64,000 nt of DNA. Origin: an uncultured Oscillospiraceae bacterium. GTDB lineage: Bacteria; Bacillota; Clostridia; Oscillospirales; Oscillospiraceae. A program made the translations under genes and the position numbers. Position 1 is the stretch's first letter. Each line of letters opens with the position of its first letter. Positions 11,832-30,463 of the stretch are shown here, piece by piece. The notes beneath the pieces are model-generated. The model was not told the DNA's origin and did no database searches. It saw nothing but the letters and a program-made list of their open reading frames with translations. The DNA lies in assembly GCA_947626265.1 (NCBI GenBank), contig CANQRM010000004.1:62001-126000 (forward strand). Direction: 5' to 3'.

Positions 11832-14800
11832 ATGCGCTTTGACTACGAAAAACTGAAGGACCCCGGCTTCTTCGCCGAAAACCGCGTTCCGGCCCACTCG
11901 GACCACGCCGTATATGCCTCTGAGGAGGAGAAGGCGCTGGGCAAGACCAGCCTGCGCTTTTCGCTGAACGGATATTGGAAGTTCTTCTGCGCCCAAAACC
12001 AGGGTCAGACGCCAGCGGGCTTTGAGGCCGCGGACTATGACTGCGCCGGCTGGGAGGACATCCCCGTGCCCGCCCATATCCAGCTGGAGGGCCACGGCGC
12101 GCCCCAGTATGTGAACGTCCAGTATCCCTGGGACGGCCGGGAGGACGTGAAGTTCGACCAGATACCGGAGAAGTTCAACCCGGTGGCCTGCTACGTGAAG
12201 TATTTTTATCTGCCGGAGGCCATGGCTGGCAAGCGGGTGTTCGTGTCCTTCCAGGGGGCGGAGAGCTGCGTGGCGGTGTGGCTGAACGGGCAGTATGTGG
12301 GCTTTGCCTCCGACTCCTTCACGCCGTCGGAATTTGAGCTTACGCCGTACCTCGCCGAGGGCGAGAACAAGCTGGCCTGCCGGGTGTACCGCTGGACGGC
12401 GGGCAGCTGGCTGGAGGACCAGGACTTCTTCCGGTTCTCCGGGCTCTTCCGGGAGGTGTATCTCTATGCCCTGCCGGCGGTCCATGTCCGGGACATCCGG
12501 GTGAAGGCCCCGCTGGACGACGAGTACAAGGACGGGGTGCTGGACGTGGCCGTGCAGGTGGAGGCGGCCGCCGGCTGGAAGCTCAAGCTGGCGCTCACGG
12601 ACGGCGGCGCTGTCATCGCCGAGGCCGAGCAGGCGGGCGATGGCGACAGCGCGGCGTTCTCCGTCCCGGTGAAGGCGCCCCACAAGTGGAGCGCGGAGGA
12701 CCCATATCTCTATGAACTGACCCTCACCGCCATGACGGCAGATGGGGAGACGGTGGAAGTCGTGCCCCAGAAGGTGGGCTTCCGGCGGTTCGAGATGAAG
12801 GGCGGGGTCATGTGCCTCAATGGCAAACGCGTCGTGTTCAAGGGCGTGAACCGCCACGACTTCTGCGCCGAGACCGGCCGTGCCGTGCCGAAAGAGAAGA
12901 TACGCCGGGACCTCATCACCATGAAGCGCAATAACATCAACGCCGTGCGCACCTGCCACTATCCCGACACAAGCGTTTTGTATGACCTGTGCGATCAGCT
13001 GGGGCTTTATGTCATCGACGAGAACAACATGGAGTCCCACGGGGCGTGGGACCCGGTGGCCCGGGGCAAAGAGCCCATCGAATACGCCCTGCCCGGGAAC
13101 CGTACCGAGTGGCAGGCCATGCTCCTGGACCGGGTGAACAGCACCTGGCAGCGGGACAAGAACCACCCCTGCGTGCTCATATGGAGCTGCGGCAACGAGT
13201 CCTACGGCGGGGACGTGATCTATGAGATGAGCCGGCTTTTCCGCAGGCTGGACGACACCCGCCTGGTCCACTACGAGGGCGTGTATCTGGACCCCCGCCG
13301 GCCGGAGACCACGGACATGGAGAGCCGCATGTACACCCCCGTGGCGAAGCTGCGGGAATTTCTGGCCGAACACCGGGAAAAGCCCCTCATCATGTGCGAG
13401 TATGCCCACGCCATGGGCAACTCCCTGGGGGCCATGCACAAGTACACCGAGTACGCCTGGGAGGAGCCCCTCTTCCAGGGGGGATTCATCTGGGACTACA
13501 TCGACCAGGCCGTCCGGACCAAGGACCGGTACGGCAGCACCGCCTATGGCTACGGCGGGGATTTTGACGACCGGCCCACGGACTATAACTTCAGCGGCAA
13601 CGGCATCGTCTATGCCGATGGGACGGTGTCTCCCAAAATGCAGGAGGTCAAGTACAACTACCAGGACGTCTTCGCCCAGGTGGGGGAGACGAGCGTGAAG
13701 GTCACGAACCGCAGCCTGTTCATCGCGACGAGCGCTTATGACTGCACAGTGACCCTGGCCCGGGACGGGGCGGAGATCGCTAGAGCCGCTTTGGACACCG
13801 ATGTGCCGCCGGGGGAGGAGCGGGAGTATCCCCTGCCCTTCGGCAGACAGACCGCACCGGGCGAGTACGCCGTGACGGTGTCCTTCTGCCTCAAGGCGGA
13901 TACCCTCTGGGCGGAGCGGGGCCACGAGATGGCCTTCGGCCAGGGGGTGTATAAGACAGAGGCCGCGCCCGCGGCGGCGGCCCACCGGCCTTTGAAGGTG
14001 GTGTACGGCAACAGCAACCTGGGCGTCGTGGGCGACGGGTTCGAGGTGCTGTTCACCTACCTGAACGGCGGGCTTTCCTCCTACCGCTTCGGCGGCAGGG
14101 AGATGCTGAAGACCATCCCCATGCCCAACTTCTGGCGGGCGCCCACGGACAACGACCGGGGCAACTTCATGCCCCAGCGGTGCGGCCAGTGGAAGCTTGC
14201 AAGCCTCTATGCCAGCGCCCACGGGGACGGGCGCATTTTCGGCCAGGCGGACTCGCCCGTGACGGAAAACCCCGACGGGTCGGTGTCCGTGCGGTTCGTC
14301 TATACCCTGTACACCGCGCCCAAAGCGGCCTGCGCCGTGACATACACGGTGCGGCCCTGCGGGAAGGTGGATGTGACGCTCCGCTATGACCCGGTAAAGG
14401 ACCTGCCCGCCATGCCGGAGTTCGGCATGCTCTTCAAGCTGGACGCGGATTACGACCGGGTGAAGTGGTATGGCCTGGGGCCCGAGGAGACCTACGCGGA
14501 CCGGTGCCGGGGGGCGAAGCTTGGCATATGGGACAGCGCCGTGGCGGACCGGATGGCCCGGTACCTGCTGCCCCAGGAGTGCGGCGCCATGACGGGCGTG
14601 CGCTGGGCGGAGGTCACGGACTACAAGGGCCGGGGCCTGCGCTTCGAGGGGGACGGCATGACCTTCTCCGCCCTGCCCTGGACGCCCCATGAGATCGAGA
14701 ATGCCGCCCACGGCTGTGAGCTGCCGCCGGTGCACTGCACGGTGGTCCGGGCCGCCCTCCAACAGATGGGCGTGGGCGGGGACGACAGCTGGGGCGCGCC

Positions 14801-14870
14801 GGTGCATGAGGAATACCTCATCGACGTGTCCAGGCCCCTGGAGTTCCAATTCAGCTTCCGGGGCGTATAG
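11832..14870 (+). CDS. Beta-galactosidase, glycoside hydrolase family 2
   Basis: A 1012-residue LacZ-type enzyme without signal peptide, so cytosolic; length matches the five-domain LacZ class. The N-terminal sugar-binding and immunoglobulin-like domains precede a TIM barrel with the acid/base Glu456 in SCGNESYGG and the nucleophile Glu523 in MCEYAHAMGNS. The C-terminal beta-sandwich starts near residue 730 and includes NFWRAPTDNDRG. It splits terminal beta-galactosides brought in by the importer upstream. The ATG at 11832 is the only sensible start; its ribosome site is distant and bridged by a hairpin. No intracellular partner gene such as galK is in the window. Confidence 0.95.
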   Translation: MRFDYEKLKDPGFFAENRVPAHSDHAVYASEEEKALGKTSLRFSLNGYWKFFCAQNQGQTPAGFEAADYDCAGWEDIPVPAHIQLEGHGAPQYVNVQYPWDGREDVKFDQIPEKFNPVACYVKYFYLPEAMAGKRVFVSFQGAESCVAVWLNGQYVGFASDSFTPSEFELTPYLAEGENKLACRVYRWTAGSWLEDQDFFRFSGLFREVYLYALPAVHVRDIRVKAPLDDEYKDGVLDVAVQVEAAAGWKLKLALTDGGAVIAEAEQAGDGDSAAFSVPVKAPHKWSAEDPYLYELTLTAMTADGETVEVVPQKVGFRRFEMKGGVMCLNGKRVVFKGVNRHDFCAETGRAVPKEKIRRDLITMKRNNINAVRTCHYPDTSVLYDLCDQLGLYVIDENNMESHGAWDPVARGKEPIEYALPGNRTEWQAMLLDRVNSTWQRDKNHPCVLIWSCGNESYGGDVIYEMSRLFRRLDDTRLVHYEGVYLDPRRPETTDMESRMYTPVAKLREFLAEHREKPLIMCEYAHAMGNSLGAMHKYTEYAWEEPLFQGGFIWDYIDQAVRTKDRYGSTAYGYGGDFDDRPTDYNFSGNGIVYADGTVSPKMQEVKYNYQDVFAQVGETSVKVTNRSLFIATSAYDCTVTLARDGAEIARAALDTDVPPGEEREYPLPFGRQTAPGEYAVTVSFCLKADTLWAERGHEMAFGQGVYKTEAAPAAAAHRPLKVVYGNSNLGVVGDGFEVLFTYLNGGLSSYRFGGREMLKTIPMPNFWRAPTDNDRGNFMPQRCGQWKLASLYASAHGDGRIFGQADSPVTENPDGSVSVRFVYTLYTAPKAACAVTYTVRPCGKVDVTLRYDPVKDLPAMPEFGMLFKLDADYDRVKWYGLGPEETYADRCRGAKLGIWDSAVADRMARYLLPQECGAMTGVRWAEVTDYKGRGLRFEGDGMTFSALPWTPHEIENAAHGCELPPVHCTVVRAALQQMGVGGDDSWGAPVHEEYLIDVSRPLEFQFSFRGV

Positions 14871-15237: not shown

Positions 15238-16560
15238 ATGGAGAAAAATGAGATAAAAAACGAGAATGGGCCGATCGCCGTCGTCGGCACAGGGTATGTG
15301 GGGCTCCCGCTGGCGATCGGTTTTTCCAAAAAGGTCCCTGCCATTGGATTCGACGTCGTAAAGGAGAAGATCGAATTGCTCCGGAACGGCGTGGATACCT
15401 CCGGTGAGTTCACGCCGGAGGTGTTGAAGAGCGCCGCGGTGGAATACACGGACGATCCGGCCAGGCTGGACGCCGCCACAGTGTTTATCGTCGCCGTTCC
15501 CACGCCGGTGCATGACGACAAGACCCTGGACCTGGCGCCGCTGATCAGCGCCAGCAATACCATTGGCGAACATCTCTCCCCGGGCGGTCTGGTCGTATAC
15601 GAGTCCACCGTCTATCCCGGCGTGACGGAGGATGTATGCATACCCATCCTGGAGAAGAAGTCCGGCATGAAGGCCGGCCGGGATTTCTGGGTGGGCTATT
15701 CTCCCGAGCGGATCAACCCGGGGGACAGGGAACACACGCTGACCAGTACGGTCAAGATCATCTCCGGGCAGGACGAGACCGCGCTGGAAAAGGTCGAAAA
15801 GGTGTACGGCCTTTTGTTTGACGGCAGTGTTTCCGGCTCCCTTTACAAGGCCAGGAGCATCAAGGTGGCGGAGGCCGCCAAGATCGTGGAAAATACCCAG
15901 CGGGACATCAATATCGCGTTCATGAACGAGATCGCCCAGATCCTGCACCGGATCGGCGTGGATACCGTCGACGTGCTGAACGCCATGAACACGAAGTGGA
16001 ATGCCCTGGGGTTCCGGCCCGGCCTGGTCGGCGGCCACTGCATCAGCGTGGACCCGTATTACCTGATCCAGGAGGCGGAGCGGATGAACTATCACGCGAA
16101 CTTCCTGTCGGCCGCCCGGGCCGTCAATGAGGACATTCCCGTCATGATCGCGCAGCAGGTCGTCCGGGCGTTCACCACGGCCGGGAAAAATCCTGCCGGG
16201 CAGCGGGTCTACGCGCTGGGGCTGACCTTCAAGGGCAATGTGCGGGACATGCGCAACGCCAAGATGAAGCGGATCGTGGACATACTGGCGTCCTATGGGG
16301 TGGACGTAAAGATCGCCGACCCCATGGCGGTCCCCGGGGACATCACCCGGGTGTATGGCCGGGAGCCTGTGGCGATGGAGGATGTACGGGACGGCGACTG
16401 CCTGATCATCGGCGCCGATCACCGGGCGTTCCACTCGTGGACAGACGCGGACTTCAGCCGCATGCTCCGCCCCGACGGAGCGAAGCTGATCTTCGATATC
16501 TGCAACATCTATGACCGTGCCTCCATCGAGGGGCAGGGATATCGGTACTGGAGCTTGTAA
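15238..16560 (+). CDS. Nucleotide-sugar dehydrogenase (UDP-glucose/GDP-mannose dehydrogenase family)
   Basis: A 440-residue cytosolic enzyme that oxidises the C6 hydroxyl of a nucleotide sugar to a uronic acid with NAD+. GTGYVG at 17-22 is the NAD-binding loop, the central helix dimer domain follows, and GGHCISVDPYY carries the catalytic Cys268. LTFKGNVRDMRNAK in the C-terminal domain is typical of the WecC/TviB/WbpO branch, which acts on UDP-GlcNAc, UDP-ManNAc or UDP-GalNAc, rather than of UDP-glucose dehydrogenase; the substrate is not settled by sequence. The ATG follows GGAGGGG. As first gene of the operon it would supply the charged sugar donor for the synthase two genes downstream, as AlgD or HasB do in other systems. 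Confidence 0.9.
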   Translation: MEKNEIKNENGPIAVVGTGYVGLPLAIGFSKKVPAIGFDVVKEKIELLRNGVDTSGEFTPEVLKSAAVEYTDDPARLDAATVFIVAVPTPVHDDKTLDLAPLISASNTIGEHLSPGGLVVYESTVYPGVTEDVCIPILEKKSGMKAGRDFWVGYSPERINPGDREHTLTSTVKIISGQDETALEKVEKVYGLLFDGSVSGSLYKARSIKVAEAAKIVENTQRDINIAFMNEIAQILHRIGVDTVDVLNAMNTKWNALGFRPGLVGGHCISVDPYYLIQEAERMNYHANFLSAARAVNEDIPVMIAQQVVRAFTTAGKNPAGQRVYALGLTFKGNVRDMRNAKMKRIVDILASYGVDVKIADPMAVPGDITRVYGREPVAMEDVRDGDCLIIGADHRAFHSWTDADFSRMLRPDGAKLIFDICNIYDRASIEGQGYRYWSL

Positions 16561-16598
16561 ATCGTTTTTGACGCATGTTTTCACAGGAGGAAACAGGA

Positions 16599-17282
16599 AT
16601 GTTCGGAAAGAAAGACAAGTTACAGGAGCTGCTGCAAAGCGTTGCGAACCTGGAACAGCAGCTGGAGGAAGTGAAAACATCTTATGCGGCAGACCGCGCC
16701 GCGCTGGATGAGCTTCGCAGCCACACGGCGGTGGAAGATCAGGCCACGGCTGAGATTCGTGACGCCCTGCGCAAAAAACTGGAGGAGCTGAACGAAAGAG
16801 CCCGGCAGGATGAGCTGGACCGGCAGGAGGCGAAGAGGGCTTTTCAGCAGGAGATGGAGGAAAAGCGCGCGCTTCTGGACCGGGAGCTGGCGCAGCGCCG
16901 GGAAGAGGAGACGGCCGCTCTTCAACAGCGGGTGCAGACATTCCAGGCGTGCTACGACCGTTATCTTTCTCAGATACGGCAGGCGGTCGAACGCCTGAAC
17001 GAGGCTTCGCTCACGGTCGGACAGGCGGCCTTTGACAAGGACACCGATATCGCCGCTATGTTCAGCGAGCTGCTGGGGCCGTTCCCGTTTGAAAAAGCTG
17101 AGCCGGAGGAAGCGGCCGTTTCGGATATACCTTCCGTAAAGCAGTATATGGCCGCTCATCCCGAGAAGGCCGGGGCCCCGGAGAGCGGGGAGACCGGCGG
17201 TACCGCTTCAGAGCCTGGTCCGTCAGGTACCGTCTATTCTTTTATGATGCGGGAGGACGCCCCCGCAAAGACAGCGGAGTAA
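16599..17282 (+). CDS. Coiled-coil protein of the exopolysaccharide operon
   Basis: A 227-residue soluble protein. Residues about 5-120 form a nearly continuous coiled coil rich in Glu, Gln, Arg and Ala; then a short conserved-looking stretch (FDKDTDIAAMFSELLGPFPF) and an acidic, Pro/Ser/Thr-rich tail. The start at 16599 is taken because AGGAGG lies eight bases upstream, while the in-frame ATG at 16575 precedes that site. No known family recognised. Its position between the dehydrogenase and the synthase suggests an accessory or scaffolding role. The frame of the next gene is already open from 17093, and its translation between 17283 and 17422 continues the acidic linker style, so the two may form one product by frameshift, or a frameshift error may split one gene. 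Confidence 0.75.
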   Translation: MFGKKDKLQELLQSVANLEQQLEEVKTSYAADRAALDELRSHTAVEDQATAEIRDALRKKLEELNERARQDELDRQEAKRAFQQEMEEKRALLDRELAQRREEETAALQQRVQTFQACYDRYLSQIRQAVERLNEASLTVGQAAFDKDTDIAAMFSELLGPFPFEKAEPEEAAVSDIPSVKQYMAAHPEKAGAPESGETGGTASEPGPSGTVYSFMMREDAPAKTAE

Positions 17283-17422
17283 GTCCCGGAGAGGGACCGT
17301 GCCTCGCCGAGGCATCCCGATCGGCTGAAGGAGAGGAACCGGAATCAAGGCCGGACGTTCAGGTAGAGGCGCAAAAAACTGAACATGAGACCGGCTCTCC
17401 GGAGGAGGCGGAGGACGTTCCG

Positions 17423-19390
17423 TTGCCCTCCGGGGCGAAAGCGGGCCTCTTTTCCAGGCTCTTCAGGATACGCAGAGGCGCCGGGAAGAAGAAGCAGCCG
17501 CCTGCCGACATCCTCCTCAAGCCCAAGGGCGACCGGAGGACCCTGCCCAATGTACCGGACCCGGAGGGCATCCGCCTGGGCGGCGACCGGCGGGGAAACA
17601 CGGACGGCGAGGAGCGGGAACACGACTTCAGAAAGTATGTCCAGTCCCTCAATGAGGGCATCCGCTACGAGGTGGACCTGCCCGCCAAGATCACCTGCCG
17701 CGGCGGCGGAGCGCCGCGTTCCTCCCTGCGCTGCCGGATACTGGACCTGTCCATGACGGGCGCGCTGCTTCGGCTGGAGACGCCGTCGGACAGGGAGACA
17801 CTGGAAAAGTCCACGGGGCGCGTCATATCGTTTACAATCGAGCCCGGCGCGCTGCCGGAGGGGCTCGAGATGTCGGTGAAGCAGAAATTCACCTGCGCCC
17901 GCTTCTTTGAGCGGGAGGACGGCGTGTATGCCGGCGTCCAGTTCGCCCTGCCCCTGTCCAAGTACGCGGCCCGGCGAAAGGACCGCATCGAACTGACAAC
18001 AGCGTCGATCATGCTGTTCATGATCGTTGCCACCGTCATGCTGATGCGCGCCGAAAGCGTCATCTATTTCAAATTCAACCGGTGGCTGTATCTTTACAGC
18101 ATCATGGCCATGGTATTCCTCCTGAGCCGGTATCTGCTGGGCGCGTTTTACAAGCCTGTGCCCATCGACGTGGATTTCACGCCCAGCGTGACGATCCTGA
18201 TACCGTGCTTCAACGAGGAGACCTGGATCGGCAAGACCGTGCAGAGCTGCGTCAACCAGGACTATCCGATCGACAAGCTGGAAGTGCTGATCATCGACGA
18301 CTGTTCCACGGACGGTTCCGCCCAGCGGGTCCTGGATACCATCGACGAGATCGACCGGGGCAACTCCCGTTTCCGCGTGAAGGAACGGGTCCGCCTGATC
18401 GTGCAGGAGAAAAACGGCGGCAAACGGGAGGCGCTGTCCACGGGCGCGCTGGAGGCAAAGAACGATCTGCTCGTCTTTGTGGATTCGGACAGCTTTTTGG
18501 ATGTGTTCGCGATCCGCAATCTGGTCCAGCCCTTCAAGGACCCGAAGATGGGCGGCGTGGCCGGACGGACGGATGTGGCCAACACCTATACCAACGGCCT
18601 GACGAGGATGCAGTCCGTGCGGTACTATATCGCCTTCCGCATCATGAAGGCGGCGGAGGCCGTATTCGATACGGTCACCTGCCTGTCCGGGCCGCTGTCC
18701 TGCTACCGGAAGGATATCGTGCTGGATAACCTTCAGGCCTGGCGGGACCAGAAATTCCTCGGCCAGCGGGCCACCTTTGGCGACGACCGGAGCATGACCA
18801 ACTTTGTCCTCCGGCACCACCGCACCAACTATCAGGATTCGGCGGTATGCAGCACCATCGTGCCCAACGAGTATCCGGTCTTTCTGAAGCAGCAGATGCG
18901 CTGGAAGCGCTCGTGGCTGCGCGAGTCCATCATGGCGGGAAAATTCATGTGGCGCAAGGAGCCGTTCAGCGCGGTGCTGTTCTACATCGGGCTTCTGGTC
19001 CCCCTTGCCGCGCCCATAGTCGTTTTGTATAACCTGGTCTATGTTCCCATCGCGCACCGGGTGTTCCCGACCACCTTCCTGGTGGGTATTCTGATGATGA
19101 GCCTGCTGATGAGCGCGGCGCAGATGCTGCTGCGAAAGAGCAGCACGTGGCTGTGGGGCATGCTGTTCTGCTTCTACTATGAGGCGGTGCTGCTGTGGCA
19201 GATGCCCATCGCGTGGGTGACGTTCTGGAAGTCGACCTGGGGAACGAGGATGACGCCCGAGGACGTGAAGGAAGCCGAGAAGAAGAAACAGGCGAAGCTG
19301 GAGCGCCAGCAAAAAAAGAAGTCGAAATCCGGCCGTCACCAGACAGACGGGACGGCGTATAAGCGTGAGAAAGAGGATACCGTGGCGTGA
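17423..19390 (+). CDS. PilZ-GT2 polysaccharide synthase, hyaluronan-synthase-like
   Basis: A processive membrane glycosyltransferase of 655 residues from TTG at 17423. Residues 78-180 are a PilZ domain with the DLSMTG motif at 108-113, but only one arginine of the RxxxR switch (Arg81; Asn77 replaces the other), so cyclic-di-GMP binding is uncertain. Membrane helices lie near 193-208 and 222-244, then a GT2 domain with SVTILIPCFNE, DSD at 354-356, CLSGPLSCYR at 420-429, FGDDR at 452-456 and QxxRW at 490-494, the pattern of hyaluronan synthases. Several helices and a Lys-rich tail follow. GGAGGA lies seven bases before the TTG, but no ATG or GTG exists in the open frame from 17093, which leaves a frameshift origin possible. 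It probably polymerises and exports the polymer. Confidence 0.88.
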   Translation: MPSGAKAGLFSRLFRIRRGAGKKKQPPADILLKPKGDRRTLPNVPDPEGIRLGGDRRGNTDGEEREHDFRKYVQSLNEGIRYEVDLPAKITCRGGGAPRSSLRCRILDLSMTGALLRLETPSDRETLEKSTGRVISFTIEPGALPEGLEMSVKQKFTCARFFEREDGVYAGVQFALPLSKYAARRKDRIELTTASIMLFMIVATVMLMRAESVIYFKFNRWLYLYSIMAMVFLLSRYLLGAFYKPVPIDVDFTPSVTILIPCFNEETWIGKTVQSCVNQDYPIDKLEVLIIDDCSTDGSAQRVLDTIDEIDRGNSRFRVKERVRLIVQEKNGGKREALSTGALEAKNDLLVFVDSDSFLDVFAIRNLVQPFKDPKMGGVAGRTDVANTYTNGLTRMQSVRYYIAFRIMKAAEAVFDTVTCLSGPLSCYRKDIVLDNLQAWRDQKFLGQRATFGDDRSMTNFVLRHHRTNYQDSAVCSTIVPNEYPVFLKQQMRWKRSWLRESIMAGKFMWRKEPFSAVLFYIGLLVPLAAPIVVLYNLVYVPIAHRVFPTTFLVGILMMSLLMSAAQMLLRKSSTWLWGMLFCFYYEAVLLWQMPIAWVTFWKSTWGTRMTPEDVKEAEKKKQAKLERQQKKKSKSGRHQTDGTAYKREKEDTVA

Positions 19391-21252
19391 GCAGGAGCTG
19401 GACAAGAAAAGATGTCGTCAAGGCGGTCCGGTCGGTCCTGGAGGCTCTGGCGCTCATCGCGATGGTGGTCTTCATCATCCGGGCGCTGTTCACCTTCAGC
19501 AAATATGAGCCGTACGACCCGGCCTCGGTGGACAGCGGGACCAGCACCGGGCTCGTGGCCCTGTCCTGGTTCGGCGTCGACCGGGAGGGCGACTCGTCGC
19601 TGATCAGCACCGCCCGTCTGGATGAACAGCTGCGGACCCTGCACGAGCAGGGCTTTGTGACCGTGACCCAGGACGATATCATCGCCTACTATGAGGACGG
19701 GACGCCCCTGCCGGAGAAGGCCCTGTTTCTGATGTTTGAGGACGGCCGCCGGGATACGGCGATCTTTGCCGAGAAGATACTGGAAAAGTACAACTTCAAA
19801 GCGTCCATGCTGACCTACGCGGAGAAGTTCGAGCTGAACGACCCCAAGTTCCTCCTGGCGGACGACCTGAAGGAGCTGCTGGACAGCACCTATTGGGAGC
19901 TGGGCACCAATGGCTACCGGCTGTTTTACATCAACGTCTTTGACCGGTACGACCACTATCTGGGCGAGCTGAACACCCTGGAATACGCCAGGGTGACCGA
20001 CTGTCTCGGCAGGAAGTACAACCACTACCTGATGGACTATATCCGGGACAAGTACGATGTGCCCAAGGAGTCCTACTCCGAGATGCGCGCCCGGATATCC
20101 GCGGACTATGAGGGCATGGACCGGGAGTACACCGACAAGCTGGGCGCGCTGCCAAAGCTCTATTCCATCATGCACTCCAATACCGGCCAGTTCGGCAACA
20201 ACGAACGCGTCAGCGACGTAAACGCCGAGTGGATATACAAGCTGTTCAGCCTCAACTTCAACCGGGAGGGAGACTGCTGGAACACGACCCGGGAGCCGGA
20301 GCACACGATCTATGACCTGACCCGCATGCAGCCTCAGTCCTATTGGTACATCAACCACCTGCTGATGCGTATAAAATACGACAGCGGCCTGGAGATACAG
20401 TTCGTGCCGGGGGATGAGACGGAATATGCCAACTGGGACGTGCGCCAGGGGGCCATGGAGTGCAAGCAGGAAAAGCTCGTCGTCACATCGGAGCCGGAGT
20501 CGGAGGGCCTGGCGATGCTCAGGGGCTATACCTTCGGGGACGGACAGGTGAACGTGGAGCTCACGGGCAACAAGCTGGGCATGCAGAGGGTCCTGCTGCG
20601 CTCGGACGAGACGGGGCAGAACGCCGTTTACGTCTCCCTGGAAAACAACGTGCTGAAAGCCGGCGAGCTGTCCGGCGGGGCGGAAAAGGAGCTGTTTTCC
20701 CTGGACCTGGACGATTTTGACCAGGTCGAACCCGTCTCGGTGGAGGAGGACGAAAAGGCCGCCCGGCTGGTGGAGCTGTCCACCCTCGCCCGGTACGCCG
20801 AGGATGTGGATACCGCCAGCGCCTTTCTCGCCGAATCGAGAGAGGTGGAGAAATGGGACCCCGCCTCGGTGGAGGAGGGCGCCCAGGAATATGTCCCGGA
20901 CATCGACATCCGGGACGCCGGCGACCGCGCGCTGACGATCACGCTGAACGGCGCCGGCATGCGCATCGACGTCGACGGCAAAACAGCGGCGGAGGACATC
21001 CGGGTGGAAAATGTCTCCGAAGGACAGCTGGGCTTCGTCTGCCGGTGGGGCGGCTTCGGCTGGAGCCAGCGCAACCTGGCGGACGACGTATACGACGGCG
21101 TGTTCGAGAAGCTCTGCGTCCGGACCCTGCCGGACGGGGAGGGACATACCCAGGTCATATACGACGACCTGCTCCACGGAGTGGACAAGGCGGTGGATGT
21201 GGCCTCCGGCGTGTGGCAGGCCGTGGTCAACTGGTTTATCAAGAATCTGTAA
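19387..21252 (+). CDS. Membrane-anchored degenerate polysaccharide-deacetylase-like protein
   Basis: A 621-residue protein with one N-terminal membrane helix (about 17-35) and an extracellular body. Residues about 50-180 follow the CE4/NodB deacetylase pattern (GFVTVTQDDIIAYY, PLPEKALFLMFEDG, AEKILEKYNFKASML), but the catalytic TFDDG is MFEDG at 116-120 and the HxxxH metal site is replaced by ELGTNGYRLF near 171-180, so it is probably inactive. The C-terminal 250 residues look like beta-sandwich domains. Start is GTG at 19387, overlapping the synthase stop by four bases, which ties it to the synthase. A structural or polymer-binding role at the cell surface is inferred. Confidence 0.75.
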   Translation: MSRSWTRKDVVKAVRSVLEALALIAMVVFIIRALFTFSKYEPYDPASVDSGTSTGLVALSWFGVDREGDSSLISTARLDEQLRTLHEQGFVTVTQDDIIAYYEDGTPLPEKALFLMFEDGRRDTAIFAEKILEKYNFKASMLTYAEKFELNDPKFLLADDLKELLDSTYWELGTNGYRLFYINVFDRYDHYLGELNTLEYARVTDCLGRKYNHYLMDYIRDKYDVPKESYSEMRARISADYEGMDREYTDKLGALPKLYSIMHSNTGQFGNNERVSDVNAEWIYKLFSLNFNREGDCWNTTREPEHTIYDLTRMQPQSYWYINHLLMRIKYDSGLEIQFVPGDETEYANWDVRQGAMECKQEKLVVTSEPESEGLAMLRGYTFGDGQVNVELTGNKLGMQRVLLRSDETGQNAVYVSLENNVLKAGELSGGAEKELFSLDLDDFDQVEPVSVEEDEKAARLVELSTLARYAEDVDTASAFLAESREVEKWDPASVEEGAQEYVPDIDIRDAGDRALTITLNGAGMRIDVDGKTAAEDIRVENVSEGQLGFVCRWGGFGWSQRNLADDVYDGVFEKLCVRTLPDGEGHTQVIYDDLLHGVDKAVDVASGVWQAVVNWFIKNL

Positions 21253-21267
21253 GGGCGGGATAGGAAA

Positions 21268-22290
21268 ATGCGCAGACCCGTTATGATACTGCTTTGCGTG
21301 CTGGCGCTGCTGGCTGCCCTGCTGGCGGTATTTCTGTGTACCAGGCAGGGGGAACAGCCCGCGCCTCCTGCCGGGTCCCTGCTGGACACCGGCTGGAACT
21401 GCGCCTGGTATGTATACTGGGACAGCGACGTGGCGGATGAGCTGAAAGCCCTCCGGGACGACGCGGACAGCATCTGCCTGTTCGCCGGCTATTTCGACGA
21501 TGAGGCCAATGTATATATGCCGGAGGCCATGGCCCGGGACCGGGCGCTTTTGGCTGAACTGCAGGCGCCCATGGTATATGTCTCGTTTACGAACGACGTG
21601 CAGCACGCGGACGGGACCGCCACGCAAAAGGACGTTCAGCTTCTGACGAAGCTGTGGTCCGACAGGGCCCGGATGGAGGCGACGGCCGATGCGCTTCTGG
21701 ACACGGTCCGGGATATGGACGCCGGCGGGATCGAGATCGATTTCGAGAATATAAAAGACGATGAGACCTGGACCAGCTACGGCAGCTTTCTGCAGGTGCT
21801 TGCGGACAAGGCGGAGGAACGCCAAATCGCTGTGCGCGTGGTGCTGCCGGTGACGGCGCCGGTCGACACGCTGGCGTTGCCGGAAAACGCGGAATATACC
21901 GTCATGTGCTACAACCTCCACGGCCTCGGCAGCAGCCCGGGTCCGAAGGCCGACGCCGCGTTTTTGAAGAAGACGGCAGAAAAATTCTCCGTGCTGCCCC
22001 ACGCCGTTTATGCGCTCGCCACCGGCGGGTTTGAGTGGGACGGGGACGGCAGGGGCGTCCGCTCCCTGACCCAGGCGCAGGCGGAGACGCTCGCCGCCGA
22101 AAACGACGCCAAAACGAAGCGGGACGGCGACAGCAGCGCGCTGCACTTCACCTACCGCGACGGCGATGAAAAGCACACCGTATGGTACGCGGACGCCCAG
22201 ACGCTGGCCGACTGGCGCGGCGTCATCCTGCAGACGGACGCCGACGCCGGATTCGACCTGTGGCGCGTGGGCGGGAATACCTGGGCATAA
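21268..22290 (+). CDS. GH18-like glycosidase of the exopolysaccharide operon
   Basis: A 340-residue protein with an N-terminal membrane anchor or signal (residues 5-24) and an extracellular GH18-type barrel. GGIEIDFE at 153-160 corresponds to the DGxDxDxE signature and keeps the last Asp and the acid Glu160; the closing strand contains the LWR of the family (DAGFDLWRVGG). GH18 members cleave chitin, peptidoglycan or related amino-sugar polymers. Exopolysaccharide operons normally include one hydrolase that trims or releases the polymer, and the choice of a GH18 fits a GlcNAc-containing product. It ends at a bidirectional terminator. Confidence 0.75.
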   Translation: MRRPVMILLCVLALLAALLAVFLCTRQGEQPAPPAGSLLDTGWNCAWYVYWDSDVADELKALRDDADSICLFAGYFDDEANVYMPEAMARDRALLAELQAPMVYVSFTNDVQHADGTATQKDVQLLTKLWSDRARMEATADALLDTVRDMDAGGIEIDFENIKDDETWTSYGSFLQVLADKAEERQIAVRVVLPVTAPVDTLALPENAEYTVMCYNLHGLGSSPGPKADAAFLKKTAEKFSVLPHAVYALATGGFEWDGDGRGVRSLTQAQAETLAAENDAKTKRDGDSSALHFTYRDGDEKHTVWYADAQTLADWRGVILQTDADAGFDLWRVGGNTWA

Positions 22291-22304
22291 GATATAAAAA
22301 TAAG

Positions 22305-22340
22305 AAGCCCTCCTCATGTCAAAGACACGAGGAGGGCTTT
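22305..22340. terminator. Bidirectional intrinsic terminator
   Basis: AAGCCCTCCTC (22305-22315) pairs with GAGGAGGGCTT (22329-22339), with TTTT on the right and an A-rich stretch on the left. It serves the convergent GH18-like and SGNH lipoprotein genes. Confidence 0.85.
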
Positions 22341-22351
22341 TCCGTCATCTG

Positions 22352-24634
22352 TCAATCTTCATCCGGGACGTAGTGCGTGGCCAGATAGTCGAACCAGTAC
22401 TGGTAGTGAGCCGGCGTGAAGTGGACCCCGTCCGTCGTCACATCGGAGGGCAGGAACCCCTCCGCGTCGCACAGGACAGAGCACACGTCCAGATACCAGA
22501 CCTGCTGCTCGGCGGCGATCGACTGCAGCATCTCGTTGAAGGCGAGGACGCCGGCCTGCGTGAACTCCCCTTCCGCGTCGCTCTCCCTGCTCACGGGCGT
22601 CGCGCTCATAAGATAGATCACCGCGCCGGGATGGTCGTCCCGAAGCTTGCCGATCACGAAATCATACGCCTCGCGCACGTCATCCTGGTCATAATTGAGC
22701 TCGTTCATGCCGAAGCCGATGTATATCTTATCGAACTGCTGGTCTGTCATTCTATCGACATAGGACAGCGCCGCCGTGATCGTAAGGCCGTCCTGCCAGA
22801 ACCAGTGGCTGGCGTCAACGGGAAGCAGGCCGTTGTTATAAAACCACAGGCCGGACAGCACGGAGTTGCCGAGGAACCCGGCGTTGGCGAAATAATCGGA
22901 GGAGGCGGGAACGCTCTGCTCCTGCACCAGCGGAACGAACCTTTCCACAGGCTCCGGCGTGGCGGCCGGGGTTTGCGTCGGCGTGGGCGCGGCCGTCGCC
23001 GCGGCGGCGGGCGTATTTGCCGCTTCCGCTTCATCCGCCGGCGGCTCGCCAAGCAGCTTTTCCTCTTCCGGCGTCAGGAACACGTGGCTCTGCAGATACT
23101 CGAACCACCGCTTGCAGCCGTCTTTGTTGGGGCAGACGCCGTTCTTATGCGCCAGGAAGGAGAACATATATCCGTTCCGATTGGTCAGCATGGGGCTGGC
23201 GTCGATATAGAGGCAGCCGTTTTCCTCCGCCAGCTGCGCGATCCGCCCGTTGATCCGTTTGATCCGCCCGCCGGAGATGATGACCCGCTCCTTCTCCGCG
23301 GCCTCCGTCACCGGCAGTATCCCCTGGAGGATGATCTGCACGTCGGGGAACTGCTCCCGGAGCAGCTTGACCATCGCCTCATAGGAATCGATCAGCTCAT
23401 CGTTGGTGGATGTGGACAGATCGTTCAGCCCCATCAGGACGAATATCCTGCTGGGGTTTTGGGAACTGATCTCATCGAATATGCCCTTTTCGCCGCCCTT
23501 CCCGTCCGGGATGGGCGCGTTGTCCACCACCTGCCGGGGCGTGAGCGTGCTGTAAGCGCAGAACGAGGCCGACGGGGGGATATCCTTCACGAATTCCGCA
23601 AAGGCCGCCATCTGCGCGTCGCCGATGAACAGCGCATTATCGAACCACTCGGGGTCCACCGGGGCATGCTCCTTGGTATTATCCTGCCAGGCGATATCAT
23701 CGAGCGTGAACATGGACGCCGCCAGCTCGTCAAAGTCCAGGCTCAGACGGTCCAGCGACACCACCGCCATCTCGCTGGTCTCCAGCGCGTCCAGCAGGTT
23801 CCGCACGGTGGTGAGAATGTCCGTCTTTGGCTCTTCTTTCTCTTCCTGCGGCGGCTCTTCCTTCAGCGCGTCATCAAAGTCCACGGCCGGACGTTCGTCC
23901 TTCTCGGCCGGCTCATATTCCGTCTCGTCCAGGCCTTCGTTCAGTTTGACCGCGACCACGTCCCCCGAATTCAGCCCCGACACGAACCCCATGGCCGCGA
24001 TGAAGGAGGGCAGGCTGACCGCCGCCAGGTATTTCGACGGCTCCACCGCCGTCTTCAGCCCGGCGCAATAGGCCGCGTGCAGGACCTGATCGGTGAACTG
24101 CGTGGCGTTGGCGGAGCAATACTCCGGCGTTTTTCCCGTGATCTCCTTCAGGATCGTCTGCGCATGGGCAAAGGACGCGGCGATCTCCTCCTCCGGCAGG
24201 TCCTGCATGCCCTTGTCCGCCTTCAGGGTGAAGTTGCCCACCTCGAAGCCCTCGCGGACCAGATACTCCACCGCGTCGCTGCTCTCCGCGGCGGCCATGC
24301 CGTCCACGAGAAAGGCGGCCGGGATGCTGCGCTCCTTCAGCATTTTGCCCAGCTGTTCCATCTCCGCGTCATAGGCAAGGCCCATAAATACCAGGGATAT
24401 CTTCCGCTGAGACACCTTCGGGGCCGAGATCAGCTCGCACTTTTCATCCGTCTCGGCCAGCTTCCGCGTAGCCTCTTCGATGCTCGCCTCCGGGTCATAT
24501 TCCCGCAGCTGCAGATGGACCTCCGGACCGACGCCCACCGGATGGACGCTGGCCTGCTTTACGCCGCAGCCGGAAAAAACGCCGCAGAAAAGCCCCAGGA
24601 GGAGCAGCAGCGAGACCGTCTTTTTTCCTCTCAT
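22352..24634 (-). CDS. Lipoprotein with deacetylase-like and tandem SGNH domains
   Basis: A 760-residue lipoprotein (FSGC with Cys23). Residues about 78-215 resemble a CE4/NodB fold without its catalytic residues (SLVFMGLAYD in place of the TFDDG strand). Two SGNH/GDSL domains follow, joined by an Ala/Pro/Thr linker (540-562). The first (about 334-520) has GDA at 338-340 instead of GDS, keeps GLND at 402-405, and has NGVC where the second has DGVH, so Ser, Asp and His are all lost. The second (about 585-755) keeps Ser591, GMNE at 642-645 and Asp735/His738 and may be an esterase or acyltransferase. Convergent to the synthase operon, it may modify or hold its polymer outside the membrane, as AlgX/AlgJ do for alginate; this is inference. 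Confidence 0.8.
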   Translation of the reverse strand: MRGKKTVSLLLLLGLFCGVFSGCGVKQASVHPVGVGPEVHLQLREYDPEASIEEATRKLAETDEKCELISAPKVSQRKISLVFMGLAYDAEMEQLGKMLKERSIPAAFLVDGMAAAESSDAVEYLVREGFEVGNFTLKADKGMQDLPEEEIAASFAHAQTILKEITGKTPEYCSANATQFTDQVLHAAYCAGLKTAVEPSKYLAAVSLPSFIAAMGFVSGLNSGDVVAVKLNEGLDETEYEPAEKDERPAVDFDDALKEEPPQEEKEEPKTDILTTVRNLLDALETSEMAVVSLDRLSLDFDELAASMFTLDDIAWQDNTKEHAPVDPEWFDNALFIGDAQMAAFAEFVKDIPPSASFCAYSTLTPRQVVDNAPIPDGKGGEKGIFDEISSQNPSRIFVLMGLNDLSTSTNDELIDSYEAMVKLLREQFPDVQIILQGILPVTEAAEKERVIISGGRIKRINGRIAQLAEENGCLYIDASPMLTNRNGYMFSFLAHKNGVCPNKDGCKRWFEYLQSHVFLTPEEEKLLGEPPADEAEAANTPAAAATAAPTPTQTPAATPEPVERFVPLVQEQSVPASSDYFANAGFLGNSVLSGLWFYNNGLLPVDASHWFWQDGLTITAALSYVDRMTDQQFDKIYIGFGMNELNYDQDDVREAYDFVIGKLRDDHPGAVIYLMSATPVSRESDAEGEFTQAGVLAFNEMLQSIAAEQQVWYLDVCSVLCDAEGFLPSDVTTDGVHFTPAHYQYWFDYLATHYVPDED

Positions 24635-24788: not shown

Positions 24789-25778
24789 TCATGGGGCCCC
24801 CGGGTCTCTCTGCCGGCCCGTTTCGGGATACGGGGACGCAGGGCGGCCCGCCGCCGCGGCCATCGCCTGGTCCCGGTACTGCCCGGGGGTGCAGCCCTCG
24901 ACGGATTTGAACATGCGGATGAAGGAGGAGGCGTTGGAATAGCCGCTGGCCAGGGCCGTGTCCGTGACGGTCATGCCCTGGGTCAGCAGGAGCTGGCAGG
25001 CGTATTGGATGCGCTTGCGGTTCACGTAGCGGTAAAAGGACTCGCCGGTGAATTCCCGGAACAGCCGGGAGAAGTGGAACTTGCTGAAATTCATCATGCC
25101 GGATACCTTGTCCAGGGACAGGTCCTCGGTGCAGTGGTCGTCGATGTAGGAGCAGACCATGGTCATCTTGTTGACGTACTCCTGCCGCCGCTCCCGGCTC
25201 ACCGGCGCGGGCCGGTCGGAGGTGCCGTAGTTCTGGGCCGCCAGCACCAGCATCTCCATGACCTTGCTGTAGATCACCGGCTCCATCAGGTCCACCGGCG
25301 CGGCCGGGGCTTCGGGGAGGCCAAAAATCCCATCGGGGGGGGGTATCAGGTATTTTTCCCGCTCAAAATAAGCGTCGCACAGCTCCCGCAAAAGCCGCTG
25401 GAGCCGGGCGTGGATGAGAGGGGAGTTGGCGGCGGTGAACAGGGCGGAGGGATTGATCATGGAGAGCATCTGCCGCACGCCCAGCACGTCCGAGACGGCG
25501 GACATGTCGATGAGCGCGAAGATGCGCCTGCCCCCGGCCGGAGCCGCATAGGCGTGGTAGACGTTGGGGGCCACGAACAGGATGTCCGAGGGCTCCAGAT
25601 GGAAGGTGCGGTTGCCGATCCGGGCGGTGTAGCCGTTTTCCACGGGCATGAGGATCTCCAGGGGGGTGTGCCAGTGGGTGGGATAGCTGGTGGGCTCGTC
25701 GTTCATATATACGATGACGTGGCGGTTGCCGGAAAAGGGCACGGTCTCATGGTATCCGCCAAAGTGTTCAACTCCCAC
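24789..25778 (-). CDS. AraC family regulator of the second sugar locus
   Basis: A 329-residue regulator: cupin effector domain at about 20-110 (PTHWHTPLEILMPVENG) and the AraC double HTH at about 205-305 (MNFSKFHFSRLFREFTGESFYRY; SGYSNASSFIRMFKSVEG). The start is GTG at 25778, six bases after AAAGGAGGGGG. It is divergent from the binding-protein operon and is the likely activator of it. Residues 145-147 are three prolines encoded by a run of nine C (nine G on the plus strand), between the two domains, so slippage there would yield the effector domain without DNA binding. The tail is a disordered Pro/Arg/Gly-rich stretch. Confidence 0.9.
   Translation of the reverse strand: MGVEHFGGYHETVPFSGNRHVIVYMNDEPTSYPTHWHTPLEILMPVENGYTARIGNRTFHLEPSDILFVAPNVYHAYAAPAGGRRIFALIDMSAVSDVLGVRQMLSMINPSALFTAANSPLIHARLQRLLRELCDAYFEREKYLIPPPDGIFGLPEAPAAPVDLMEPVIYSKVMEMLVLAAQNYGTSDRPAPVSRERRQEYVNKMTMVCSYIDDHCTEDLSLDKVSGMMNFSKFHFSRLFREFTGESFYRYVNRKRIQYACQLLLTQGMTVTDTALASGYSNASSFIRMFKSVEGCTPGQYRDQAMAAAAGRPASPYPETGRQRDPGAP
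25335..25343 (-). repeat. Poly-G/C tract (9) inside the second AraC gene
   Basis: Nine G on the plus strand, read as the C run of three proline codons in the regulator. A one-base change would truncate the protein ahead of its DNA-binding domain. It parallels the ten-G run in the other AraC gene. Confidence 0.8.
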
Positions 25779-25995: not shown

Positions 25996-27351
25996 ATGAA
26001 GAAGATCCTTTCCATAGCGCTCGTCCTCGTGATGTGCGTATCCTTGTTTGCCGGTCTGGGCACCACCGCTCTGGCTGACGACAATGTGATCAACCTCTAT
26101 GCCTTCACGGACGAGGTCCCCACGATGCTCCAGAAGTACATCGACGAGCATCCCGACTTCGGCTACACCCTGAACACCACCATCATCGCCACCACGGACG
26201 GCGCCTATCAGCCCGCTCTGGACCAGGCCCTGGCCGCCGGCGGCGACGACGCCCCTGACATCTACTGCGCCGAGGCTGCCTTCATCCTGAAGTACTCTCA
26301 GGGCGACGCTGCTGGCTATGCCGCTCCCTATGAGGACCTGGGCATCGACGTGGCCGGTGAGCTGGAGACCGCCGACATCGCTCAGTACAGCGTGGACATC
26401 GGCACCAACCCCGACGGCAAGGTCGTGGCTCTGGGCTATCAGGCCACCGGCGGCGCGTTCATCTATCGCCGCTCCATCGCCAAGGAAGTCTTCGGCACCG
26501 ACGACCCCGCCGAGATCGGTGAGATCATTGGCGCCGGCTCCGGCAGCTGGGACAAGTTCTTCGAGGCCGCCGAGACCCTGAAGGCCGCCGGCGACGCCAT
26601 CATCTCCGGCGACGGCGACCTGTGGCACGCCGTGGAGAACAGCTCCGACAGCGGCTGGATCGTTGACGGCGCTCTGAACATCGACCCCAAGCGTGAGGCT
26701 TTCCTGGACCTGTCCAAGCAGCTGAAGGACAACGAGTATCACAACGATACCCAGGACTGGACCGAGGCCTGGTACAATGACATGGCCGGTATCGGCTCCA
26801 AGCCCGTGTTCGGCTTCTTCGGCCCCGCGTGGCTGATCAACTACACCATGGCTCCCAACTCCGGCGGCGAGGCTGTCGGCGAGGGCACCTACGGCGACTG
26901 GGCCGTCTGCGAGAGCCCCATCGGCTTCTTCTGGGGCGGCACTTGGCTGCTGGCCAACAAGGACGTTCCCGAGGCCAAGAAGGACGCTGTTGCCAAGCTC
27001 ATCGAGTGGGTCACCCTGGACTCCTCTGAGGACGGCCTGCAGTATCACTGGGCCAACGGCACCATGGTCGACGGCGTGCAGGGCACCAAGGACTGCGTCG
27101 CTTCCTCCACCGTGATGGCCGCTTCCGACGGCACTGTCGACTTCCTGGGCGGCCAGAACATGTTCGACGTGTTCGTTCCCGCCAACGCCTTTGCCAACGG
27201 CACCAACCTGACCCAGTACGACGAGACCATCAACTCCTACTGGCGTGACGCTGTCCGTGCCTACACCTCCGGTGAGCTGGACCGCGACGGCGCTATCGAG
27301 GCCTTCAAGACCAACATAGCCGACAACCTGGATATCGAGGTCGAGTTCTGA
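25996..27351 (+). CDS. Extracellular solute-binding protein of a second sugar importer
   Basis: A 451-residue family-1 binding protein with a Sec signal peptide (residues 1-27, ending TALADD) and again no lipobox Cys. The mature part begins NVINLYAFTDEVPTML and includes FGFFGPAWLINYTM and the FWGGTWLLANKDV segment typical of CUT1 binding proteins. The high share of C-ending codons points to strong expression. It should deliver an oligosaccharide to the two permeases downstream; with the GH3 enzyme at the end of the cluster a beta-glucoside or beta-xyloside is likely. A terminator-like hairpin directly follows. Confidence 0.92.
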   Translation: MKKILSIALVLVMCVSLFAGLGTTALADDNVINLYAFTDEVPTMLQKYIDEHPDFGYTLNTTIIATTDGAYQPALDQALAAGGDDAPDIYCAEAAFILKYSQGDAAGYAAPYEDLGIDVAGELETADIAQYSVDIGTNPDGKVVALGYQATGGAFIYRRSIAKEVFGTDDPAEIGEIIGAGSGSWDKFFEAAETLKAAGDAIISGDGDLWHAVENSSDSGWIVDGALNIDPKREAFLDLSKQLKDNEYHNDTQDWTEAWYNDMAGIGSKPVFGFFGPAWLINYTMAPNSGGEAVGEGTYGDWAVCESPIGFFWGGTWLLANKDVPEAKKDAVAKLIEWVTLDSSEDGLQYHWANGTMVDGVQGTKDCVASSTVMAASDGTVDFLGGQNMFDVFVPANAFANGTNLTQYDETINSYWRDAVRAYTSGELDRDGAIEAFKTNIADNLDIEVEF

Positions 27352-27366
27352 TATTCTGACGGCAGA

Positions 27367-27404
27367 GGGGGACGGTTCATACACATGGGCCGTCTCCCTT
27401 TTTT
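27367..27404 (+). terminator. Intrinsic terminator after the binding-protein gene
   Basis: GGGGGACGG (27367-27375) pairs with CCGTCTCCC (27390-27398, one G-T pair), followed by six T residues. As the permeases lie just downstream without an obvious new promoter, read-through probably sets their lower expression. Confidence 0.75.
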
Positions 27405-27429
27405 GACAGCAGCGGAGAGGAGGGCGTAT

Positions 27430-28413
27430 ATGAGACCCAAAAAACTGTCATACGCCAAATACGGCTACATATTCAGTATCCCCTTCGTCGTCGCCTTCTG
27501 CCTGTTCACCCTGTATCCGGTCATCTTCACGCTGGTCATCGGCTTTACGGACTTCAAGGGCCTGGGCGCGACGAATTTCAACTTCCTGTCGGAACCCTTT
27601 AAAAACTTCCAGCAGATCCTCAGCTCCCCGTCCTTCAAGACGGCGCTGAAAAACACCTTCGTGCTGTGGGGGCTGAACTTCCTGCCCCAGATCCTGCTGG
27701 CCCTGCTGCTGGCGGCCTGGTTCTCCGGGACGCTGTTCCAGGTCAAGGGACAGGGCTTCTTCAAGGTCGTCTTCTACATGCCCAACATCATCACGGCGGC
27801 CACCATCGCCATTTTGTTCGGCACCCTGTTCGGCTACCCCATGGGGCCCATGAACAGCCTGCTGCAGAAATTGGGCATTCTCAGTTCACCCTATAACTTC
27901 TTCCAGAATAAATGGTGGGCGAAGGGCGTCGTATCCTTCATCCAGTTCTGGATGTGGTACGGCTACACCATGATCGTGCTCATATCCGGCATCCTGGGCA
28001 TGAACACCGAGTGGTTCGAGGCCGCGGAGCTGGACGGCGCCTCGGGTTGGCAGAAGTTCTTCTACATAACCCTTCCCAACCTGCGCACCATCCTGATCTA
28101 CACCCTGGTCACCAGCCTCATCGGCGGCCTGCAGATGTTCGATATCCCGTACCTGCTGGTCTCGAAGAGCGGGCCCAACAACGCCACGCTGACCGCCAGT
28201 GTGTTCATCTACAACCAGGCGTTCAGCGGAAGCTATATGTATAACCGCGCCTCCGCCGCCAGTATGATCATGTTCGCCATCATCTGCGTGCTCTCCGCCG
28301 TGGTGTTCTACCTCATGCGGGACCGGTACGAGGTGAAGGCCCAGAAGGAACTGAAGCGCGCGGAACGTCAGAGACTTCGCGAGGAGAAGCAGAAAGCGAG
28401 GATGGGCGCATGA
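27430..28413 (+). CDS. Sugar ABC transporter permease, first
   Basis: A 327-residue CUT1 permease with six membrane helices and an EAA loop containing EAAELDGASGWQKFFYITLP. The ATG at 27430 follows GAGAGGAGG by six bases; the in-frame start at 27385 lies within the terminator hairpin and is rejected. The C-terminus is a long basic helix (KAQKELKRAERQRLREEKQK). It overlaps the next permease by four bases (ATGA). Confidence 0.92.
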   Translation: MRPKKLSYAKYGYIFSIPFVVAFCLFTLYPVIFTLVIGFTDFKGLGATNFNFLSEPFKNFQQILSSPSFKTALKNTFVLWGLNFLPQILLALLLAAWFSGTLFQVKGQGFFKVVFYMPNIITAATIAILFGTLFGYPMGPMNSLLQKLGILSSPYNFFQNKWWAKGVVSFIQFWMWYGYTMIVLISGILGMNTEWFEAAELDGASGWQKFFYITLPNLRTILIYTLVTSLIGGLQMFDIPYLLVSKSGPNNATLTASVFIYNQAFSGSYMYNRASAASMIMFAIICVLSAVVFYLMRDRYEVKAQKELKRAERQRLREEKQKARMGA

Positions 28414-29252: not shown

Positions 29253-29258
29253 AGATAA

Positions 29259-30441: not shown

Positions 30442-30463
30442 TTTCGATATCAAGGAGCGACTT

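Follow-up and report, generated by a model that had tools for sequence, protein, structure and literature searches.

The closest described relatives of the locus studied here are the Class I hyaluronan synthases (HAS) of vertebrates and Chlorella virus, the poly-N-acetylglucosamine (PNAG) operons pgaABCD and icaADBC, the alginate locus with its Alg8/Alg44, AlgIJFX and AlgE proteins, and synthases that hold a glycosyltransferase family 2 (GT2) domain and a PilZ domain in one chain, namely BcsA, clostridial Ccs and RiGT2. The PilZ domain of this last group is described as C-terminal, and Gram-positive Pel as a biofilm polymer linked to cyclic di-GMP (c-di-GMP). We analysed a stretch of 64,000 nucleotides (the window) from an uncultured Oscillospiraceae bacterium (GCA_947626265.1, contig CANQRM010000004.1, positions 62,001 to 126,000), part of a 3.2 Mb draft genome in 77 contigs. 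Six of its genes, between 15238 and 24634, encode a nucleotide-sugar dehydrogenase (UDH), a coiled-coil protein (CC), a GT2 synthase with an N-terminal PilZ domain (PilZ-GT2), a PgaB-like protein (DAC), a hydrolase resembling glycoside hydrolase family 18 (GH18) and an SGNH lipoprotein; all were found where an earlier, sequence-only reading had placed them. That reading had proposed a Gram-positive, synthase-dependent exopolysaccharide locus, and the conserved cassette, the HAS-like GT2 and the c-di-GMP links described below support it. We consider it probable that this is a c-di-GMP-linked locus of that kind with a HAS-like polymerase, its polymer and its c-di-GMP binding being predictions from sequences and structural models. 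It would work like a PilZ-linked synthase-dependent system and would belong to the HAS-like GT2 fold class, but it matches none of the standard operons (has, pga, bcs, pel, alg); Pfam, NCBIfam and fold comparisons bear out the proposed separation from the alginate, Pel, PNAG and cellulose operons, and Pfam and NCBIfam find no Pel families in the six genes. Among the open-access matches listed, judged by titles and the starts of abstracts, none describes a locus with an N-terminal-PilZ, HAS-like synthase, although one may be in print.

At the centre of the locus stands the PilZ-GT2, in which Pfam recognises Glycos_transf_2 and PilZ domains, as had been claimed together with HAS-like motifs. These motifs are conserved in relatives: SGPL, GDDR and QQxRW are invariant in 78/78 aligned rows, and SGPL is followed by S in 62 rows and by A in the other 16. 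When the single sequence was run against the PDB (phmmer), hyaluronan synthases ranked on top (E 4.5e-39), with cellulose synthases at E 0.002-0.004, and a profile built from 47 relatives (47-row alignment A1) matched HAS at E 5.9e-49. When the AlphaFold model (predicted local distance difference test, pLDDT, 79.5) was submitted to Foldseek, ranks 1-13 were hyaluronan synthases (8smp, E 1e-21), namely Xenopus HAS1 and Chlorella virus HAS, and BcsA appeared from rank 16 on (best E 3.3e-13). By profile and by fold, hyaluronan synthases are the nearest solved relatives, and a HAS-like fold is supported by these predictions. A cellulose synthase identity was rejected on the score of the NCBIfam CelA model (42.9 bits for a cut-off of 699.1), on a fold closer to HAS than to BcsA and on the N-terminal place of the PilZ domain; the six genes also lack a BcsB or CcsB.

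Likeness to the Class I enzymes extends to the GT fold, the DxD motif and the substrate pocket. Residues K177, R341, W342, S345 and R348 of Chlorella virus HAS, as given in PMC12987647, correspond to K334, R493, W494, S497 and R500 here, all conserved; among the HAS residues compared, only Y91, H174 and Y299 are replaced (by F, N and F). The Class I synthases differ from the present system, which has an N-terminal PilZ domain with an arginine arm, a TviB-type dehydrogenase and partners of the GH18, SGNH and carbohydrate esterase family 4 (CE4) kinds. A Lactococcus plasmid (L090) and a genome of the window's family (L003) each carry a pair of genes for a nucleotide-sugar dehydrogenase and a HAS-like GT2 that is too short for a PilZ part, with a GT domain 37% and 33% identical, respectively; these pairs are perhaps a simpler relative of the present system. 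A Shine-Dalgarno-ATG pattern search in L090 found none.

We compared 80 loci, the best 80 of 94 relatives from one scan of named genomes (52-97% identity, mostly Bacillota). The DAC gene lies beside GT2 in 80/80, so the cluster is no chance neighbourhood, and the GH18-like gene is found in 70; five of the other loci lie at contig ends (L037, L038, L045, L058, L065), and five from rumen Lachnospiraceae (L024, L026, L040, L043, L044) lack it. A HAS-like GT2, modifying enzymes and a hydrolase are, thus, gathered in one conserved cluster, as is expected of a synthase-dependent system. Cassette records, many of them from gut or soil Firmicutes, include Faecalibacterium, Roseburia, Butyrivibrio, Acidaminococcus, Megamonas, Dialister, Clostridium and Paenibacillus, and a further homologue (57%) sits on a Paenibacillus plasmid in the annotated order polysaccharide deacetylase, GT2, polysaccharide deacetylase, GH18. 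The neighbourhood comparison suggested earlier for Oscillospiraceae, therefore, shows a conserved cassette but not a speciality of that family, in which 2/200 genomes gave a match: the window genome, with the only full-length GT2, and one with a 30% homologue devoid of the PilZ part. This patchiness, also seen in the window's genus (GT2 in 2/35 genomes), perhaps reflects horizontal transfer. Three records labelled Chloroflexi or Acholeplasmataceae (L007, L008, L063) carry cassettes whose place on the GT2 tree is with Clostridia and Negativicutes, and are either mislabelled bins or cases of transfer.

The nature of the sugar precursors is addressed by UDH, whose assignment as a nucleotide-sugar dehydrogenase is confirmed by the N-terminal, central and C-terminal UDPG_MGDP_dh domains (Pfam). 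Its best NCBIfam model is TviB (NF011729; 372.8 bits, E 2.1e-111, under the equivalog cut-off of 592), followed by UDP-N-acetylmannosamine dehydrogenase (219 bits), WecC (165) and TuaD (116); its best PDB match is 4r16, a hypothetical UDP-ManNAcA dehydrogenase (E 2.3e-54), and its GGHCI motif is conserved in a 28-row alignment. The linked UDH is, thus, of the TviB type and not of the UDP-glucose 6-dehydrogenase type. From this assignment, the uronic acid proposed earlier is plausible, and where UDH is linked the polymer likely contains an N-acetylhexosaminuronic acid (HexNAcA). A TviB-like UDH lies in the examined flank of 31/80 loci, in several branches of the GT2 tree, and is absent from it in 49/80, some flanks being short. 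We searched 30 cassette genomes, of which 26 had been picked for having no UDH in the examined flank: a homologue of at least 44% identity occurs somewhere in the genome in 20, only one of 33-36% in 8, and none at E 1e-40 in 2. As some cassette genomes lack a close UDH, HexNAcA is no fixed property of the cassette.

Downstream of the synthase, DAC had been called deacetylase-like. It matches no Pfam family at E 0.1 and the PgaB models of NCBIfam only weakly (E 2e-8, far below cut-off); its AlphaFold model (pLDDT 90.5) retrieved with Foldseek the N-terminal domain of E. coli PgaB (3vus, E 1.5e-12, TMt 0.77) and the CBM66 structure 4b1m. E118-D119 (73/73 rows) stand where we would expect the catalytic Asp-Asp of PgaB, and N175 (71/73) and L179 (72/73) at what is presumably the place of its histidine motif, judged from sequence rather than by superposition. 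The PgaB/CE4 fold of the supposed deacetylase, thus, stands, but its usual metal histidines are apparently lost. Since other polar residues are invariant (H324 in 73/73 rows, for example), DAC may as well be an altered enzyme as a dead one. The proposed GH18-like hydrolase holds on its conserved GxEID(Y/F)E and MCYNL strands and on the Paenibacillus homologue annotated "glycosyl hydrolase family 18 protein", with no Pfam family matched at E 0.1. A PgaB-like CE4-fold protein, a glycosidase partner and a GT2 synthase recall the PNAG operons; in contrast to these, the GT2 is not of the PgaC/IcaA type, separate genes encode the deacetylase fold and the hydrolase, the metal histidines are apparently missing from DAC and neither PgaA nor PgaD is among the six genes.

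The last gene had been described as a convergent SGNH lipoprotein. This is correct for the window, but the protein is a CE4-like/SGNH fusion (Polysacc_deac_1 and two stretches of GDSL lipase in Pfam), and its relatives lie inside the operon, directly upstream of GT2 in L007, L008, L069, L072 and L073. As read from sequence, the first SGNH domain has GDA in place of GDS and no closing DxxH, and the second has GNS and DGVH; if, as we assume, the GDS serine motif and DxxH are the SGNH blocks, one copy looks decayed. In the relatives read, the gene upstream of GT2 encodes instead a series of CE4 units: degenerate repeats, then a final domain that has the motifs FDDW, HTxxH and RPP. CE4 is found in 67 of 77 cassettes (L081, L082 and L084 were left out; 66 passed the script cut of 60, and L079, which scored 59, was confirmed by Pfam), and all three motifs occur in 50/66 scored rows, the other 16 failing a three-motif regular expression. 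SGNH without CE4 is the state of nine loci and the window: in eight the gene lies upstream of GT2, and in L005, as in the window, it is convergent and downstream. L006, the tenth locus without CE4, has a contig that breaks off upstream, and L076 alone has both. In the window's clade, SGNH stands in CE4's place. MBOAT and/or AlgX-like genes flank 6/10 loci without CE4 vs 3/67 with it, and among these three, two genes are on the opposite strand and one is 7.7 kb off. A Fisher test gave p 1.4e-4 for 6/11 vs 3/66, counts that precede the addition of L079 and are, thus, slightly off, and it ignores kinship. The O-acetyl state arises at two separate places on the GT2 tree (L006-L008, beside the window, and L069/L072/L073); the window locus has no O-acetyl gene, and three MBOAT genes lie elsewhere in its genome. 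This gene content suggests that N-deacetylation has been exchanged for O-acyl control between clades. The MBOAT and/or AlgX-like genes of the six CE4-less relatives are reminiscent of the alginate locus, as are the PilZ-linked synthase, the sugar-nucleotide dehydrogenase and a barrel in diderms; unlike there, PilZ and a HAS-like GT2 share one chain, the dehydrogenase acts on a UDP-HexNAc and not on GDP-mannose according to its assignment, the barrel is OmpM-type and not AlgE, and Pfam finds no epimerase or lyase in the six genes.

The diderm relatives are ten Negativicute-type rows (one labelled Acholeplasmataceae) that cluster together on the GT2 tree, in which some forks are unresolved. An OmpM-type gene lies beside UDH in 9/9 testable loci, the contig of the tenth (L057) starting too late. 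The OmpM-type profile (A3) matched the barrel of Veillonella OmpM1 (8bym, E 9e-13; 8bys, 2.5e-12) and its stalk (8bz2, 6e-6), entries described in PMC10628300. A monoderm cassette that gains a barrel in diderms fits polymer export, but OmpM1 is also described as a tether and a nutrient channel, and export is here a predicted role.

The proposed link to c-di-GMP begins with the PilZ domain. There, the D/NxSxxG motif is kept in 77/78 rows and is preceded by an N-terminal arm that holds two DRR words and in which R38, R39, R51, R56 and R57 (76/78) and R81 (77/78) are nearly invariant, the rows without the arm (L005, L016) having predicted starts that fall too late; this arm may provide the arginines for c-di-GMP. 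In an Rfam scan of 46 of the 80 loci (846 kb), L013 and L077 each showed, at gathering score, a c-di-GMP-I riboswitch about 0.1-0.2 kb upstream of UDH, and L028 showed one of the c-di-GMP-II class some 60 bases upstream of its first cassette gene; that two classes occupy equivalent positions suggests that they were recruited independently. Genes with GGDEF, lastly, are present in 50/50 cassette genomes tested vs 113/200 in the window's family. In the window genome itself we found one PilZ match, that of GT2, one GGDEF and no EAL match; this only GGDEF protein combines receiver, HD and GGDEF domains, so c-di-GMP synthesis and breakdown may sit together in a single protein.

Several of our results weigh against this reading. 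The PilZ domain scores 22.8 bits in Pfam, 0.3 bits above the cut-off of 22.5, and RxxxR is at its usual place in 1/78 rows; according to PMC10374906, the PilZ domain of the Gram-positive synthase RiGT2 is required for activity and does not bind c-di-GMP in vitro. Rfam found no c-di-GMP riboswitch at gathering score in 43/46 relatives searched and no riboswitch at that score in the window. The two GGDEF samples are not matched by kinship, and within the window's genus GGDEF (25/35 genomes) is not tied to the cassette (GT2 in 2/35), the very counts that led us to reject the idea, prompted by two congeners that lack both, that the cassette and the single GGDEF gene had been gained together. Single-protein Pfam scans of 7 of the 9 OmpM-type genes gave no SLH or barrel match above cut-off. 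The chitooligosaccharide synthase NodC has identical residues at the mapped HAS sites, contacts of the glucuronic acid (GlcA) carboxylate included, and the polymer is here a prediction from genes.

The best-placed alternative builds on the NodC likeness: GT2 would make a N-acetylglucosamine (GlcNAc) homopolymer, chitin- or PNAG-like, with UDH serving elsewhere or in decoration, in a Gram-positive counterpart of pga/ica. We regard it as a serious contender at somewhat less than even chances. NodC is the best NCBIfam match of GT2 (171 bits), K334 and R493 are common to both, and, since NodC has the same residues, the mapped pocket carries no decision on a HAS-like substrate choice; it was rejected as a proof that the substrate is a uronic acid. 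A GlcNAc polymer is also what DAC, with its PgaB-like fold, and the GH18 and CE4 partners point to. The 49/80 examined flanks (some of them short) that lack UDH speak for this alternative too, and so do 10/30 genomes, in a sample picked mostly for such an absence, where no UDH reaches 44% identity. On the other side, GDD and SGPL group GT2 with HAS (NodC has GED and CGPC), UDH adjoins the cassette in 31/80 loci on several tree branches and the PgaC model reaches 116.6 bits for a cut-off of 422.3. A genuine hyaluronan or chondroitin-like locus, whose synthase would use UDP-GlcNAc and UDP-GlcA, seems improbable to us: it has the nearest profile and fold and nearly all HAS residues compared in its favour, and the TviB-type UDH (373 bits, vs 116 for TuaD) against it, although two more distant dehydrogenases elsewhere in the window genome (26-27%) could still supply UDP-GlcA. 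A cell-wall or spore-coat modification set, to which weak NCBIfam matches of CE4 spore-deacetylase models to the SGNH protein and the action of some GH18 proteins on spores might point, is very hard to reconcile with a processive HAS-like synthase at the centre, an OmpM-type gene in diderms, upstream c-di-GMP riboswitches and a cassette common to Negativicutes and Paenibacillus.

Returning to the c-di-GMP-linked exopolysaccharide locus that we favour, UDH would make UDP-HexNAcA, and the membrane GT2 would polymerise, likely, UDP-GlcNAc and, possibly, the uronic sugar, passing the chain out via its own channel, gated on c-di-GMP by the PilZ domain and its unusual arginine arm. Outside the cell, DAC may hold or modify the chain and the GH18-like enzyme may cut it; CE4 or SGNH/O-acetyl modules, depending on the clade, would alter its acetylation, and in diderm relatives the OmpM-type barrel would take it across the outer membrane.

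The CC gene adds a lead of its own. Among the 80 relatives, only L005 and L006 share it with the window (phmmer, E 1e-5). The sole standard start of the GT2 frame in the window is the TTG at 17423, with GGAGG 8 bases upstream; in L005 this codon is TTA, and no in-frame ATG, GTG, TTG, CTG, ATT or ATC precedes the conserved arm. In the stretches concerned (17105-17423 in the window, 9817-9990 in L005, 948-1153 in L006), the CC gene of each ends with CTTTTAT and, after it, a GC-rich hairpin (GCGGGAG..CYCCCGC), and both frames are open. A -1 frameshift fusing CC to PilZ-GT2 is, thus, a candidate and only a lead, because the linker has no synonymous bias between the window and L005 (3 synonymous changes, 7 not). 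The most complete version of our proposal, in which a c-di-GMP-gated HAS relative makes a new HexNAc/HexNAcA heteropolymer across Bacillota, with an OmpM-type exit in diderms and this frameshift in the window's clade, we hold to be rather unlikely as a whole.

Features of the locus are collected in Table 1. The five + strand genes are closely packed, with an overlap of 4 bases between GT2 and DAC, and a strong 16-pair hairpin separates the end of this run from the convergent gene.

Table 1. Positions and predicted nature of the features of the locus in the window.
Feature	Position	Strand	Description
UDH	15238..16560	+	TviB-like UDP-N-acetylhexosamine 6-dehydrogenase, predicted UDP-HexNAcA supplier
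CC	16575..17282	+	Coiled-coil protein; no Pfam family
PilZ-GT2	17423..19390	+	Predicted membrane polysaccharide synthase: N-terminal PilZ, HAS-like GT2, transmembrane helices; TTG start uncertain
DAC	19387..21252	+	Membrane-anchored PgaB-like CE4-fold protein (predicted), C-terminal CBM66/LamG-like domain
GH18-like hydrolase	21268..22290	+	Predicted secreted or lipid-anchored; conserved strands and homologue annotation
Hairpin with T tail	22305..22339	. (reported on - strand)	Likely terminator, between convergent genes
CE4-like/SGNH lipoprotein	22352..24634	-	CE4-like and two SGNH domains; Pfam, 7-row alignment, neighbourhood

Around the locus, Pfam identifies a solute-binding protein (8556-9821), a beta-galactosidase (11832-14870) and an AraC-type regulator (24789-25778), and similar-looking transporter and GH3-like genes, judged by eye only, occupy 25996-32614. 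A role in anti-phage defence was also considered and rejected, PADLOC giving no match for GT2 or DAC.

If correct, the system would be a synthase-dependent biofilm polymer system of gut genera, Clostridium and Paenibacillus, and a new kind of bacterial one. It would connect c-di-GMP with a HAS-like enzyme and give these bacteria a candidate matrix polymer; it also offers a pair of exchangeable modification modules, CE4 on the one hand and SGNH with MBOAT/AlgX on the other, and, for diderm Firmicutes, a candidate for a dedicated exit across the outer membrane.

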